From positions 1 to 64,000 of the forward strand of contig NZ_FQWE01000004.1 in NCBI RefSeq assembly GCF_900129575.1: a stretch of 64,000 bases of DNA, given 5' to 3'. Origin of the DNA: Flavobacterium segetis. Lineage in GTDB: Bacteria > Bacteroidota > Bacteroidia > Flavobacteriales > Flavobacteriaceae. Position 1 is the stretch's first letter. Every line of letters begins with the position of its first letter. The translations under genes and the position numbers were made by a program. The notes under the pieces were generated by a model. That model searched no databases and was not told the DNA's origin. It saw only the letters and a program-made list of their open reading frames with translations. This document shows, in pieces, positions 33,614-39,134 of the stretch.

Positions 33614-34468
33614 ATGAAGAAAGTAATTTTAAGCATCTCCGCGATGCTATTTGTAGGAGCTATGTCATTTGCTCAGGGAAACATTTCTAACGCAAATCAA
33701 GTTGGTAACAGCAATGCTGCACTTGTGGATCAATTCGGTAACGTTAATAGTTCCGATATAGATCAAATAGGAAACAGTAACAAATCTGATGTTTTTCAAG
33801 GTAGAAAACCGTCAAACTTTAATGCTGTGAACAATAAGGCAGAAGTAATGCAAAATGGAAATTCCAACACGGCTTTTGTTTCTCAAAGCAACAAAAATAA
33901 TGAGGCTTATCAAACTCAAACGGGGGACAATAACTCTGCTACTATCTGGCAAGATCAAATCGTTGGAGCACCTGCAGCAACTCAAGGTTCTGATTGGGGT
34001 AAACAAGTACAAACTGGTAAGTCTAATAAAGCTACTATAGATCAAGGTACTTCTGGTAATGAGAGACCAACATCTTCATCTGTATTTAGCCCTGCTCAAA
34101 TTGCAGCAGTTGCATTAGTTCCTGTTCCTGTATCGCCTAACACTCTTAACAAGGCACTGCAAACTCAAACTGGTGATTCTAATACGGCGTATGCAAGTCA
34201 AGGTGGTGAAAGAAATTCATCTACTCAAACTCAAACGTCTCCAGCGGGAACCTCTCTCGCAAATGGTAACTTATCCAATCACTATCAATATGGCAAAGAT
34301 AATAAGGCCACAAATACTCAGAATGGAACTAAATTAACGAATAATACACTTCAAATTGGTGAATCCAATATGGCAACTGTTAGTCAAACTGGTTCAATGC
34401 ATCAAAGTATTAATTATTCACAAGGGAATTTAAATTCAATTTCTGTGACTCAAAACAACGGAATGTAA
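33614..34468 (+). CDS. csgA: Major curlin (CsgA-like amyloid subunit)
   Basis: This 284-residue secreted protein has a signal peptide (ILSISAMLFVGAMSFAQG, cleaved near residue 21). The mature part is made of about ten to twelve imperfect curlin repeats of the form Q-x-G-x-x-N-x-A-x-x-x-Q. Examples are QVGNSNAALVDQ, QIGNSNKSDVFQ, MQNGNSNTAFVSQ and QIGESNMATVSQ. Such Gln/Asn ladders stack as a beta-solenoid amyloid. A non-repeat insert near residues 150-175 (SSSVFSPAQIAAVALVPVPV) breaks the series. It is first in the curli operon and is separated from the next curlin gene by a hairpin terminator, which should give it excess expression. CsgG/E/F downstream would export it. Confidence 0.93.
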   Translation: MKKVILSISAMLFVGAMSFAQGNISNANQVGNSNAALVDQFGNVNSSDIDQIGNSNKSDVFQGRKPSNFNAVNNKAEVMQNGNSNTAFVSQSNKNNEAYQTQTGDNNSATIWQDQIVGAPAATQGSDWGKQVQTGKSNKATIDQGTSGNERPTSSSVFSPAQIAAVALVPVPVSPNTLNKALQTQTGDSNTAYASQGGERNSSTQTQTSPAGTSLANGNLSNHYQYGKDNKATNTQNGTKLTNNTLQIGESNMATVSQTGSMHQSINYSQGNLNSISVTQNNGM

Positions 34469-34537: not shown

Positions 34538-35077
34538 ATGAAAAATATCTCTTTAAAATCGACCGCGTTTTTGCTTTTTTTAAGTTCAATATTATTTTCT
34601 CAAAATAGGGAGGATAATTTGGTGTTTCAAAACTATAGTTCTTCTGCTTTCGATCAAAAAGATATAGCACTGAATCTAGTTGGTAATTCTAGCAGCATTA
34701 ATGAAAGTAATAGAAATTCTTATTTATCGTATCGAAGTTCCTTGATTAATATTCAGCAAATAGGAAATTACAATAATGCGATAGTAAATATAAATTCGCA
34801 AATTTCTTCTGTAAGTGTATCGCAAGAAGGAAATAATAATAAATATTCTTTAGTAAAAGATGTAAAAAAAATTATCATGAGTGTGCAGCAAAGTGGAAAT
34901 GACAATATAATAAATGATTATTCTTACCGAAGTAATTATGATATCAATGCAAAAATGATTCAAAATGGTAATGATTTAAATATCAAAAGTATTGGAGCCA
35001 ATTCAATATCTAAGGATATGACTGTTTCTCAAAAAGGTAATAGCGCTTCCGTAATAATAATTAATAAACTTAATTGA
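34538..35077 (+). CDS. csgB: Second curlin-repeat protein (CsgB-like nucleator candidate)
   Basis: This 179-residue protein has a signal peptide (STAFLLFLSSILFSQN). Curlin-like units are spaced more widely than in the first subunit: IQQIGNYNNAIVNIN, VSQEGNNNKYSLV, VQQSGNDNIIND, MIQNGNDLNIKS and SQKGNSASVIIIN. The divergent repeats and hydrophobic C-terminus resemble CsgB, the surface nucleator. The assignment rests on position and repeat pattern, not on a clear ortholog match. The start is ATG 34538; an upstream GTG adds one residue. The downstream gene begins one base after its stop. Confidence 0.85.
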   Translation: MKNISLKSTAFLLFLSSILFSQNREDNLVFQNYSSSAFDQKDIALNLVGNSSSINESNRNSYLSYRSSLINIQQIGNYNNAIVNINSQISSVSVSQEGNNNKYSLVKDVKKIIMSVQQSGNDNIINDYSYRSNYDINAKMIQNGNDLNIKSIGANSISKDMTVSQKGNSASVIIINKLN

Positions 35078-35078
35078 C

Positions 35079-35483
35079 ATGCAGTTTATTAAAAAAATTT
35101 TAATCATAAGTCTCTTTTTATTTTTTACAAATTTTTATTCACAAGAGAGCACAACTCAAGATGAAGTTAAGGCAAAGATCGAGATTGAAAGAATTGAAAA
35201 TAATATAAAAATATTTGGAACAGCCGAAAACTTCACTGAGATAACAAAAAGTGCTTCCTACAAATTATCTGTTATACGAAAAAATATTTTGGATGGTAAT
35301 ACCAGTAACAATGCCCAAGAGGGAATATTTACTTTGAAACCTAATGAAAAGATAAAATTATCTACAACTCAAGTCAATATTACTGCTGATGACGAAGTAA
35401 TTGTAATGTTAATTTTTTATAATGAACAGAAACAAATTATTAGTAAGGAAAGATTGGTTTTTAATTCAGAAAAAAAAAAGTAG
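35079..35483 (+). CDS. CsgH/CsgC-like curli assembly domain (upstream half of a CsgH-CsgE reading frame)
   Basis: This is a 134-residue secreted protein with a signal peptide (ILIISLFLFFTNFYSQ). The mature beta-sandwich resembles CsgH: KIEIERIENNIKIFGTAEN, ASYKLSVIRKNILDGNTSNN, then QEGIFTLKPNEKIKLSTTQV and NITADDEVIVMLIFYNEQ. CsgH/CsgC proteins hold curlin subunits soluble in the periplasm. The frame ends at TAG 35481-35483 immediately after an A10 run (35470-35479). In the -1 frame the sequence continues as CsgE, which has no start of its own. The full product is therefore likely a CsgH-CsgE fusion of about 247 residues. Confidence 0.85.
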   Translation: MQFIKKILIISLFLFFTNFYSQESTTQDEVKAKIEIERIENNIKIFGTAENFTEITKSASYKLSVIRKNILDGNTSNNAQEGIFTLKPNEKIKLSTTQVNITADDEVIVMLIFYNEQKQIISKERLVFNSEKKK

Positions 35484-35818
35484 AAGAAGTACTAAAAAAG
35501 CCTGATCAAAGTTTCATTTTAAAAGGAATTATTACTGATAATACAAAAACTAGAGTTGGAAAAGAATTTTACGATAAATATTTTTATTTCTATAATGATC
35601 TTGAAATTAATGGTGGCGAAATTGTTATTATTGGAGAGGAGTTTAGTTTTGGCCGGAACATTAAAATATCAGTCGAAATCAACAATGAGATTATTTATGA
35701 ATTTATCGCAAGACCGGATGAAGAGTTTTTAGAATCAGCAGCTTCTGAAGCTGTTAATGTGACATTCTTTTATTTTAAGGAAAAAGAAAAACTAAGTAAA
35801 TATTTTACTCAATACTAA
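35465..35818 (+). CDS. csgE: CsgE domain in the -1 frame (no start codon)
   Basis: Open from 35465 without any ATG, GTG or TTG before the domain. From 35480 it encodes 112 residues of a CsgE homologue: GIITDNTKTRVGKEFYDKYF, then INGGEIVIIGEEFSFGRNIK, ISVEINNEIIYEFIARPDEE and YFKEKEKLSKYFTQY. CsgE caps CsgG on the periplasmic side and selects curlin. The frame is -1 relative to the CsgH-like ORF. Joining needs one slip back on the A10 run at 35470-35479, one extra A, or two fewer. It is functional only as a slippage product or a phase-on variant; otherwise it is a fresh frameshift or a sequencing error in a homopolymer. csgF follows after 14 bases. Confidence 0.85.
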   Translation, partial: FRKKKVEEVLKKPDQSFILKGIITDNTKTRVGKEFYDKYFYFYNDLEINGGEIVIIGEEFSFGRNIKISVEINNEIIYEFIARPDEEFLESAASEAVNVTFFYFKEKEKLSKYFTQY

Positions 35819-35832
35819 AATCATTTTTTGTT

Positions 35833-36237
35833 ATGAAATATTTTTATTTTTTAATAGCGTCAATTTTTTCTTCAGTTCCTACAAATGCACAAGCGTTCGT
35901 GTATAAGCCTGTTAATCCGGCCTTTGGTGGAGACACTTTTAATTATCAATGGTTAATGAGTAGTGCAGAGAACCAAAATAAATTTAAAGATAAAGTAAGC
36001 CAACTAGAACAAAAAACTGACCTACAAAAATTTAAAGAAAGTTTAAATTCACAATTATTAAGTCAGATTTCTAGTTTGCTTTATAGACAGCAGTTTGGTA
36101 CTGATGGTCTTTCGGAGGGATCTTATACTTTTGGAAGCTATTCAGTAGATATTTTTCCTACCGCAGATGGTCTTTCACTAAATATTCTCGATACAAATAC
36201 TGGCGAGCAAACTCAAATCATTATCCCAAAAAAATAA
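35833..36237 (+). CDS. csgF: Curli assembly protein CsgF
   Basis: This is a 134-residue secreted protein. The signal peptide (YFLIASIFSSVPTNA) leads into AFVYKPVNPAFGGDTFNYQW, the conserved F-x-x-x-NPxFGG start of mature CsgF. That segment inserts into the CsgG pore and forms a second constriction. A helical middle (KFKDKVSQLEQKTDLQKF) and a short beta C-terminus follow, as in the family. The length matches E. coli CsgF (about 138). It lies between csgE and csgG with one base before csgG, so expression is coupled. Confidence 0.95.
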   Translation: MKYFYFLIASIFSSVPTNAQAFVYKPVNPAFGGDTFNYQWLMSSAENQNKFKDKVSQLEQKTDLQKFKESLNSQLLSQISSLLYRQQFGTDGLSEGSYTFGSYSVDIFPTADGLSLNILDTNTGEQTQIIIPKK

Positions 36238-36238
36238 T

Positions 36239-37600
36239 ATGAGAATTTTAACCTACACTTCTTTACTAATTTTATCGGTTTTATCTAGTTGCACTGCTTA
36301 CTATAATCAGCCCACTGGATTGCAAAAAGCAATCATAGGAGAGGGTACCCCAGCAACATCTTTATTAAGAAATCTTCCAACTCCAAAAGAGCAGGTTGTT
36401 GTAGGTGTTTATAAATTTAGAGATCAAACCGGTCAATATAAACCCCAAGATAATGGAAATAGTTTTAGTACTGCAGTTACCCAGGGCGCTACTTCAATTT
36501 TAATTAAAGCACTAGAAGATTCAAAGTGGTTTATACCAATTGAAAGAGAAAATGTTGGTAATTTACTTCAAGAACGAAATTTAATTCGTTCAACACGACA
36601 AGAATATAATAAAAATGCAAATCCAAACGATCCTCAGTTGACCCCATTATTATATGCGGGTGTCTTGCTTGAAGGTGGAATAATATCTTATGATTCCAAT
36701 ATTATCACTGGTGGATTTGGAGCACGTTACTTTGGAGCTGGAGGGTCGGTTAAGTATCGCCAAGATAGAGTTACAATTTATTTGAGGATGGTCTCTACTT
36801 CTAATGGTAAAATTCTTAAATCTGTCTACATATCAAAAACAATACTATCTCAAGCTGTTGATCAAAGTTTATTCAGATATGTCAATTTCAAACGACTTTT
36901 AGAAGTGGAAACAGGATACACGGCAAATGAACCTATTCATATGGCGGTTAGTGAAGCGATTGAAAAGGCAGTAGAATCGATTGTGTTAGAAGGTATTCAA
37001 GATGGAATTTTATTGACAGACGATCCAAAGGAAAAGGTCGAGGCTCTTTTAAATAATTATAAAAAAGAAAATGAAATAGCTGATAATTCAAAAATTTATG
37101 GCCGAGCTTTAACACCACAAAGACGCAAGTTTGGTATCGAATTATCTGGAGGAAGTACATTTATGAACGGCGACTATTCTAATCCGTTAGCGAAGCCATT
37201 TATTAGAGGTGCTTTAAAATTTGCTCCTTCTCAAAGTTTTATTATTTCAGCATCTACAAATGCTTTAAAACTGGCAAATGAAAACGCAATAAATGTTGGG
37301 TATGCCACTTTTGATTTAAACGGTGAATGGATTATTTTACCTAAAGATAAACTGTCACCATATTTGTCCGCTGGTGCTGGAATTGGGTTTAACAGTAAGT
37401 TTGAAAACAGCCATAGTAAAGTACAGTTTGGTACTGGCTTAGAATATTTAGTTTCGGACAATTTTGGTATAAAATTGTTTGGTGAATACAATGTTAATTT
37501 TAGCGACAACATTGACTATTTGGTCGCTGGAATTAGAGATGATTATTATTATAAATTTGGTTTTGGAATCACTTATTATTTAGGTAAAAAAGCAAAATAA
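36239..37600 (+). CDS. csgG: Curli secretion channel CsgG with C-terminal barrel-like extension
   Basis: This is a 453-residue outer-membrane lipoprotein (LLILSVLSSC, Cys 18). Residues about 40-265 match CsgG: VVVGVYKFRDQTGQYKP, TSILIKALEDSKWFIPIERE, YAGVLLEGGIISYDSN and the channel hairpins around GGFGARYFGAGGSVKYRQDR. The E. coli protein ends near residue 277. Here about 150 further residues (from about 300) form alternating beta strands ending in YYYKFGFGITYYLGKK, like a small OmpA/OmpW-type barrel. The extension is seen directly; its fold and role are inferred. It forms the curlin export pore with CsgE and CsgF from the genes just upstream. Confidence 0.95.
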   Translation: MRILTYTSLLILSVLSSCTAYYNQPTGLQKAIIGEGTPATSLLRNLPTPKEQVVVGVYKFRDQTGQYKPQDNGNSFSTAVTQGATSILIKALEDSKWFIPIERENVGNLLQERNLIRSTRQEYNKNANPNDPQLTPLLYAGVLLEGGIISYDSNIITGGFGARYFGAGGSVKYRQDRVTIYLRMVSTSNGKILKSVYISKTILSQAVDQSLFRYVNFKRLLEVETGYTANEPIHMAVSEAIEKAVESIVLEGIQDGILLTDDPKEKVEALLNNYKKENEIADNSKIYGRALTPQRRKFGIELSGGSTFMNGDYSNPLAKPFIRGALKFAPSQSFIISASTNALKLANENAINVGYATFDLNGEWIILPKDKLSPYLSAGAGIGFNSKFENSHSKVQFGTGLEYLVSDNFGIKLFGEYNVNFSDNIDYLVAGIRDDYYYKFGFGITYYLGKKAK

Positions 37601-37631: not shown

Positions 37632-39134
37632 ATGAAATATATTACCCCACTTATTATTTTAACATTTATGTCCGTTTTTTTTTCGTGTAGTGAGGAAAAA
37701 ATAGATGGTAGTGCAGAAATATTCGGAACAGTCAAAGGTAAAATAGTGTCGAGTGATACTTTCGAACCATTAGAAAATGTTAAAGTTTTTTCAAGTCCAA
37801 CATCAAGTACTGTTTTCACTGATGCTGAGGGTAAATTTACGATCAGTAATATAAAAGTTGGTGAATATTCAATCCAAGCGCAGAAAGACGGCTATTTATC
37901 AAAATTTGAATCGGTTACCGTTAATAAAAATTTAGAAAGTGAAGTTGTATTTGAACTAACAAAAAACACTGGTAACAACCTACCACCTTTGGAACCCAAG
38001 ATTGTTGCACCTTTGGATAATGCTACAAATCAAAGCTTGAGTACAAAAATAGAGTGGGCAGCAAGTGATCCTAACGGAGATGTTTTAAGCTATGAAGTCA
38101 CGTTGAGAAATGATAAAAGTAGCACTGTTTTAATATATTCAGGCATAAAGGAAAAGGAGCTGTTACTGACAAATTTATTCTACGGAACTAAGTATTTTTG
38201 GCAGGTATCTGTTACAGATTCTAAAAGTAAACCAGTTTTTAGTTCTGTTTTTACATTCTCAACTTTAAGTTTTCCGTCAACTAGATATTTAATGGTAAAA
38301 AAGATCAATTCAAACAATGTGATTTTTGCTGCTGACCAAGATAAAAATAGATATCAAATAACTAGTTCGGAGACAAATAGCTGGCGTCCCAGAAAAAACA
38401 ATCAATCTGGTAAAATTGCATTCATACAATCTAATGGTTCGCAAAATCATATCTTTATTATGGATGCAGATGGATCAAATAAGACCAAAGTCACTAACTC
38501 AGTTTCTATTGCTGGATTTAACCCTGACTTTATAGGATTTTCTTGGAATACCACTGGCGATAAATTAATCTATCCAAATTTTGATAAATTATACCAGATT
38601 AATAGCGATGGTAGTGGATTGAAAAAAATATTTGAAACATCAAATGGTAAGTTTATATCAGAATGCGATTGGAGTAATGATGGTATGAAAGTAGCAATAA
38701 AGGTTAATGACAACGAAGGATACAACGCTGAAATATATGTAATTAACCTTGCAGGTGCAATTATTAGCAATGTCCTGCCGTCACAAACTGGTGCTGTAGG
38801 TAGCTTAAATTTTTCGATCACAGGTAGAAAACTACTTTATACAAGGGATGTTTCTCAGTATGAAAGTCCTAATTACAGACAACTCGACAATAGGATTTTC
38901 GAATATAATTTTGACACCTCTTTTTCGGTTCAAATTACGACAGAAAAAATCGCAGGTACTAATGATCAAGATGCGAGGTATTCACCTAACGAAGCAGAAA
39001 TTATATTTACGAACACATCAAATGATGGCACGTCTGAAAAAAATATTTTAAAAATTGAAGTAAATCCCGCTGGTCTCAATGCATTAAGAAGAGAAACCTT
39101 ATTTACTGGACAATTTATGCCTGATTGGGAATAA
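37632..39134 (+). CDS. Curli-operon lipoprotein: carboxypeptidase-like, FnIII and TolB-like propeller domains
   Basis: This is a 500-residue lipoprotein (FMSVFFSC, Cys 19). The domains in order are as follows. A carboxypeptidase-regulatory-like beta sandwich (about 28-112) includes GKIVSSDTFEPLENVKVFSS. A fibronectin III-like module (about 120-212) includes PLDNATNQSLSTKIEWAASD and KYFWQVSVTDSKS. A TolB-like beta-propeller (about 215-500) has repeated IFIMDADGSNKTKVTN, LYQINSDGSGLKKIF and DQDARYSPNEAEIIF blades. It starts 31 bases after csgG and is followed by the operon terminator, so it belongs to the curli transcript. It has no counterpart in the E. coli csg operons. Surface anchoring or fibre binding is inferred. 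Confidence 0.85.
   Translation: MKYITPLIILTFMSVFFSCSEEKIDGSAEIFGTVKGKIVSSDTFEPLENVKVFSSPTSSTVFTDAEGKFTISNIKVGEYSIQAQKDGYLSKFESVTVNKNLESEVVFELTKNTGNNLPPLEPKIVAPLDNATNQSLSTKIEWAASDPNGDVLSYEVTLRNDKSSTVLIYSGIKEKELLLTNLFYGTKYFWQVSVTDSKSKPVFSSVFTFSTLSFPSTRYLMVKKINSNNVIFAADQDKNRYQITSSETNSWRPRKNNQSGKIAFIQSNGSQNHIFIMDADGSNKTKVTNSVSIAGFNPDFIGFSWNTTGDKLIYPNFDKLYQINSDGSGLKKIFETSNGKFISECDWSNDGMKVAIKVNDNEGYNAEIYVINLAGAIISNVLPSQTGAVGSLNFSITGRKLLYTRDVSQYESPNYRQLDNRIFEYNFDTSFSVQITTEKIAGTNDQDARYSPNEAEIIFTNTSNDGTSEKNILKIEVNPAGLNALRRETLFTGQFMPDWE

Follow-up and report, generated by a model that had tools for sequence, protein, structure and literature searches.

A conserved A10G tract between a CsgC/CsgH-like frame and an out-of-frame csgE is a very likely programmed recoding site in Flavobacterium

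Runs of about ten As inside secretion-system genes have been described in tssM1 of Citrobacter rodentium and tssM3 of Yersinia pseudotuberculosis (PMC4256274). The curli locus of Flavobacterium reported here has such a run as well and, like tssM1 and tssM3, would give two length variants of one gene. Slippage leads to the longer variant in tssM1 (A11, about 20% frameshifting) and to the shorter one in tssM3 (15–25%; PMC4256274); the split form of our locus would parallel tssM1, and its fused form with an A run would parallel tssM3. The two tssM genes are each known from a single species, belong to type VI secretion, and their slippage is proven. In contrast, the csgE tract is kept in dozens of species, belongs to curli, and slippage in it is inferred.

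The dnaX gene is also similar, as it has a poly-A slip site and two products with a common N terminus (PMC3711429). Its orthologues use either machine: the ribosome at A_AAA_AAG in Escherichia coli, and RNA polymerase at A9 in Thermus thermophilus (PMC3711429). Slippage in E. coli dnaX yields the shorter product, with a Shine-Dalgarno-like sequence and a hairpin as stimulators (PMC3711429), whereas the slipped form proposed here is the longer one and no conserved stimulator was found.

The proteins involved are known from other bacteria. CsgC and CsgH inhibit amyloid formation by CsgA at substoichiometric amounts, and they have been modelled as holding CsgA in readiness for CsgE and CsgG (PMC4838910). 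E. coli CsgE caps the CsgG channel. The CsgC/CsgH and CsgE proteins described elsewhere resemble those of our locus in domains, fold, and operon company, but they are encoded by separate genes (PMC4838910, PMC3521004), and the relevant sections of these two papers name neither a CsgH-CsgE fusion nor a frameshift. A 2012 survey reported the Bacteroidetes to be without csgC (PMC3521004). In the open-licence literature that we searched, supplements excluded, there was no report of programmed frameshifting in curli or csgE of Flavobacterium, and none of recoding in a functional-amyloid secretion system was described; the main text of GeneTack (PMC3711429) does not mention csg or curli. A mechanism of this type is already known. 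What appears to be new is the gene concerned, its two-domain outcome, and how deeply the site is conserved.

The window, that is, the whole stretch of 64,000 nucleotides of Flavobacterium segetis that was analyzed, has a G+C of 0.325 and carries a curli operon on its + strand. The order is a curlin-repeat gene, an unmatched ORF, a csgH-like ORF, csgE, csgF, and csgG:

33614–34468, + strand: curlin-repeat protein (CsgA/B type subunit; Pfam Curlin_rpt E 2.5e-19, four stretches)
34538–35077, + strand: ORF without a Pfam match, between the curlin gene and the csgH-like ORF
35079–35483, + strand: csgH-like ORF, 0 frame, predicted unslipped product of 134 aa with a signal-peptide-like N terminus and a seven-stranded beta-sandwich
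35470–35480, + strand: very likely recoding site, A10 then G, read (G)AA AAA AAA AAG in the csgH frame, with A_AAA_AAG in phase
35481–35483, + strand: 0-frame stop TAG, directly behind the tract
35465–35818, + strand: csgE, −1 frame, CsgE domain from about 35519, stop at 35816–35818
35833–36237, + strand: csgF, next gene of the operon (Pfam CsgF E 1.9e-39)
36239–37600, + strand: csgG, outer-membrane curli channel (Pfam CsgG E 5.1e-64)

Curlin-like NxxxVxQxGNxN repeats were seen by eye in the ORF at 34538–35077, which might be a second subunit or a nucleator. Directly 3′ of csgG lies a lipoprotein-like ORF (37632–39134) with carboxypeptidase-regulatory-like and fn3 domains, and a T9 run occurs near its start (37675–37683).

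The csgH-like ORF ends in GAA AAA AAA AAG TAG, and the run has exactly ten As (35470–35479). The −1 frame is open over 117 codons (35465–35815) up to the stop at 35816–35818. Its 111 codons past the tract (35483–35815) matched Pfam CsgE PF10627 with an E value of 1.5e-12 and 48.2 bits, above the curated cut-off of 25. No ATG, GTG, or TTG is present in the csgE frame of the window upstream of the domain. The original prediction that csgE has no start and lies in the −1 frame behind a CsgH-like ORF that stops after an A10 run held fully. An A10 run is common as such, with 79 overlapping matches in the 3.46-Mb genome; the window holds three, and only the one at csgH/csgE is located in a gene body.

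The CsgH/CsgC label given to the upstream ORF in that prediction held for the fold and was borderline by sequence score. The NCBIfam CsgH model (NF041112) reached E 3.2e-07 and 30.3 bits with the window ORF, below the curated cut-off of 35, and Pfam Tafi-CsgC reached only 0.031. Among fused relatives, L195 passed the CsgH cut-off with 38.2 and L211 stayed below it with 34.1. The AlphaFold model of the csgH-like protein (mean pLDDT 85.7) has a helix at residues 2–19 and seven strands, and Foldseek ranked CsgH (2n59) first and CsgC (2xsk) second against it. VIA gave Z values of 10.7 and 11.9 for CsgH/CsgC structures, and of up to 11.5 for unrelated Ig-like domains; since its list is rich in such domains at similar Z, the fold alone is no proof of function. 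A sequence search of solved structures returned CsgC alone for the CsgH-like alignment (E 0.29 and 0.35), and E. coli CsgE (2na4, E 0.0082) for the CsgE alignment. A disulphide pattern distinguishes CsgC from CsgH (Taylor et al., PMC4838910). The translated window protein has no cysteine and does not meet this pattern, and we therefore call it CsgC/CsgH-like.

In two fused relatives, L211 and L195, NCBIfam models matched one stretch as CsgH and another as CsgE. The model of the L211 fusion (mean pLDDT 76.6) shows a beta domain, a stretch with pLDDT below 50 at residues 122–139, and a second domain. The EKKK encoded by its run starts at residue 122, inside the low-confidence stretch, so the tract is predicted by the model to sit in a linker.

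The relatives show that CsgH-CsgE was ancestrally one fused ORF. CsgE was present in 86 of 397 family genomes, the source genome included. In the 85 others, the frame that holds it spans 238–405 aa, apart from one genome (G651) with 152 aa. The locus of this genome is shorter than the others, probably because it lies at a contig end, although this was not confirmed. A class sample had CsgE in 12 of 395 genomes, eight of them outside the family with frames of 177–256 aa. The expectation that one slip at the run would join CsgH and CsgE held, as relatives carry the single long frame. Fusion ORFs in relatives with 11 As had been named as support and were found in F. turcicum, F. poyangense, and F. 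ichthyis; no relative was seen with a separate csgH and a csgE that has its own start, which had been named as a refutation. In another genus of the family, one 238-aa frame (L253, G661) has an internal TAA in its CsgE match; it could be a true pseudogene or another case of recoding.

Within the genus, a draw of 398 genomes had CsgE in 92, and the lengths of the open frames formed two groups, 52 fused and 40 split. All but one of the split loci have A10G with csgE in −1; the exception, G415, has A12 and csgE in the other frame. Among named genomes, 78 loci were recovered; 31 were fused and 47 split, the latter all with A10 and csgE in −1. The split records include F. weaverense, F. johnsoniae CI04, F. 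piscis, F. chilense, F. aquidurense, F. hibernum, and F. frigoris. A further genus draw, which partly overlaps the first, had CsgE in 125 of 396 genomes. Loci that agreed fully over the last 240 nt of csgE were merged, which reduced 209 loci to 139 distinct ones, and these were assigned as split or fused by the length of the open frame: 58 were split (57 with A10G, one with A12G) and 81 fused. The frame offset was computed for the overlapping sets of 40 and 47 split loci and not for the extra loci of the further draw; csgE was in −1 in 39/40 and 47/47, and A_AAA_AAG was in phase in the A10G loci with a computed frame.

The split loci have a median DNA identity of 0.71 over the csgE domain, so that the same tract at the same place in 57 of 58 is beyond chance. 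Outside the tract, the region of about 780 nt of these 58 loci contains four A9 runs and none longer. Three fused loci (those of F. turcicum, F. poyangense, and F. ichthyis) have A11 in frame and an uninterrupted fusion. In the other genera of the family, a linker run of at least nine As was found in 2 of the 86 loci measured, out of 87; the locus of G651 (L116) is cut short and was void. Outside the genus, the linker of an uncultured Aquimarina (L239) and that of G496 (L117) have A10, and the frame is intact in both.

Purifying selection on the out-of-frame csgE is strong. Using pairs with dS of 0.1–1.2, the csgE domain of split loci had a median dN/dS of 0.052 (146 pairs, maximum 0.414). Fused loci had a median of 0.097 (92 pairs, 14 of which exceeded 0.5), and the csgH part of the split loci one of 0.131 (84 pairs). 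The csgH frame, when read through the csgE domain, meets at least four stops (median nine). A csgF-sized ORF, identified by size and place, with a profile used only in the window, follows 11–66 nt 3′ of csgE in 40/40 split loci.

These results bear on the simplest rival, namely that a recent deletion made csgE a pseudogene or that the assemblies miscount the homopolymer. In its favor, homopolymers are prone to indels, and outside the clade, relatives encode the fusion without a break. Against it, the arrangement is common to 58 distinct loci from many projects, the out-of-frame domain is strongly selected, and a csgF-sized ORF stands behind csgE in every one of the 40 split loci. A fresh mutation or an assembly error, which the original prediction left to be excluded, is untenable given this recurrence and selection; it was rejected and can be all but ruled out.

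Another possibility is that csgE is begun anew behind the csgH stop, by reinitiation or from an internal start. The 0-frame stop is close to csgE, and in 21 of the 40 split loci the csgE frame contains an ATG, GTG, or TTG at the beginning of the domain or close to it. However, these 21 codons share no position, and the remaining 19 loci, the window included, have none. CsgE functions outside the cytoplasm, and a product begun here would have no signal peptide, as inferred from the short stretch before the domain. With no start in the window and no shared one in the split set, an own start for csgE was rejected and is practically excluded.

The tract itself is conserved beyond what it encodes. 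On the tree, its three leading codons show no third-base change among the 40 split loci. By comparison, 25 other sites in the two domains with conserved Glu, Lys, or Gln have 0–10 such changes each, on average 4.9, and two of the 25 likewise have none. That the first tract codon has no such change is weak evidence alone, because two of nine other sites with conserved Glu are also unchanged; this codon switched between Glu and Gln three times and always retained its AA. In 40/40 split loci the run is followed by G, a base with 0 steps on the tree versus 8 and 14 at the next two codon positions. From this conservation, it is very likely that the tract is a kept signal and does more than code for lysine.

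The split state requires at least four changes on a quick tree, in which the starred branches force two. F. frigoris DSM 15719 (G254) is split, yet it was placed among fused loci without a run. A single clade of the 40 split rows with five fused neighbours was rejected (p-AU 0.0004), with the reservation that the group was picked after viewing the tree. On this tree, the split form arose a second time in an independent lineage, and hence at least twice.

Changes in the length of the tract were found at a few tips. F. turcicum (A11) is 97% identical in its csgE DNA to an A10 relative (G152), and G415 (A12) is 97% identical to another (G256); both lengths are likely to be late changes. The loci L187, L211, and L223 (A11) and that of G415 (L069, A12) have a tract one or two As longer than that of A10 relatives. 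Such tips may serve as natural controls for slippage, or they may be hints of length change.

The latter sense is that of phase variation, in which the genomic length of the tract would toggle csgE, ON at A11 (or A8) and OFF at A10 or A12. It is supported by the single-A gap between F. turcicum and G152 and by the A12 of G415 against the A10 of G256, and csgE would then act as an all-or-none switch of a surface structure. However, 57 of the 58 split loci have A10, A11 occurs in only three loci, a hypermutable switch is expected to give many lengths, and a gene that is mostly OFF would not reach a dN/dS of 0.052. Because the length is nearly constant between species, phase variation fits poorly, and we consider it very unlikely.

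Taken as a whole, the A10G tract is very likely a site of programmed recoding by one machine or the other; its products, their ratio, and their functions are inferred from the sequence. Of the three mechanisms originally offered, phase variation is disfavored, and slippage by RNA polymerase and −1 ribosomal frameshifting both remain. Polymerase is slightly ahead, and the sequence cannot settle the matter. Without RNA or protein data, we can give polymerase slippage as the main mechanism no better than an even chance.

On the polymerase side, the run of A10 or A12 exceeds what the heptamer A_AAA_AAG needs, and the extra As are conserved. It also reaches the nine or so As expected of a transcriptional slippage site of the tssM1 type, and tssM1 itself is a proven precedent. 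No RNA structure was found 3′ of the tract in the window (z +1.98); elsewhere the picture is mixed, as structure behind the run (z < −2) occurred in 22/54 split and 15/63 fused windows, so that the split set is somewhat more structured, which counts against polymerase. No conserved RNA stimulator 3′ of the run was found across the split loci. In some split loci, such as L016 and L170, a hairpin is possible at the start of csgE, about 15–20 nt behind the run; it is absent in the window. A −1 ribosomal slip cannot serve the A12 genome G415, since its csgE lies in the other frame and is conserved (dN 0.004 and dS 0.161 against a relative), but this support comes from one genome only. The A11 relatives read csgE in frame. 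Against polymerase stand the nearly uniform direction of the shift (57 to 1), a constant direction being regarded as a mark of ribosomal shifting by the GeneTack authors (PMC3711429), and the invariant G behind the run, as A_AAA_AAG would demand.

In −1 ribosomal frameshifting, tRNA-Lys(UUU) would slip at A_AAA_AAG while the mRNA stays A10, and the overlapping A_AAA_AAA would perhaps aid the slip into csgE. This rival is favored by the same invariant G and near-constant direction, by the heptamer in phase in the A10G split loci, by its identity with the E. coli dnaX site (PMC3711429), and by the hairpin of some species. In addition, the 39 tRNAs found include two tRNA-Lys genes, each with UUU, in a search that scored 150 of 317 candidates. 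It is opposed by the surplus of conserved As, by the failure to find a conserved stimulator 3′ of the run, or any there in the window, and by G415. A Shine-Dalgarno sequence is the usual upstream helper of ribosomal frameshifting. The mRNAs of F. johnsoniae have no Shine-Dalgarno sequences (PMC6847099), so upstream helpers are not expected in this group, which also counts against the ribosome. On balance, we hold the ribosomal reading to be a little less probable than not.

The leading proposal thus remains slippage by RNA polymerase, which would add one A (A10 to A11) in part of the mRNA. The tract would lie in a flexible linker between the CsgC/CsgH-like and CsgE domains of what was ancestrally one protein. 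Without a slip, translation would stop behind the tract and yield a secreted CsgH-like amyloid inhibitor alone; with a slip, a secreted CsgH-CsgE fusion of about 246 residues would be made, able to serve the CsgG channel. That both products are made, in which ratio, with which functions, and by which machine are all inferences. If the slip rate is below one half, the free CsgH-like chaperone would be in excess of CsgH-CsgE.

The 0-frame stop lies at most three codons after AAG in 51/54 split loci (background 0.334). We found similar stops behind the fused A runs. Among the 14 fused loci with A9–A11, adding one A brings up a stop within one codon in 12/14, and removing one brings up a stop two to four codons on in 14/14; the background probability of meeting a stop in four codons is 0.40–0.46. 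Five of these 14 loci are near-identical and two are sisters, which leaves about nine lineages. These stops may reflect a retained two-product state, but a mechanism that cuts losses after accidental slips would look alike.

A bolder reading is that slippage on A10 sets the ratio of free inhibitor to CsgE-tethered inhibitor for amyloid export, and that selection would retain both products, no matter which of them arises without a slip. It is in keeping with the stops behind the fused A9–A11 runs and with the two or more origins of the split form. It is an inference, and we regard it as tentative and more likely to be wrong than right.

If the recoding proposed here is true, it would explain the broken-looking csgE of many Flavobacterium genomes, a gene that callers would split or drop. 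The series formed by A10 split, A11 fused, A10 fused, and run-less loci would provide a natural comparison of slippage by polymerase and by the ribosome. It would also become testable whether amyloid can be exported safely only when free and channel-bound inhibitor are kept in a fixed ratio.
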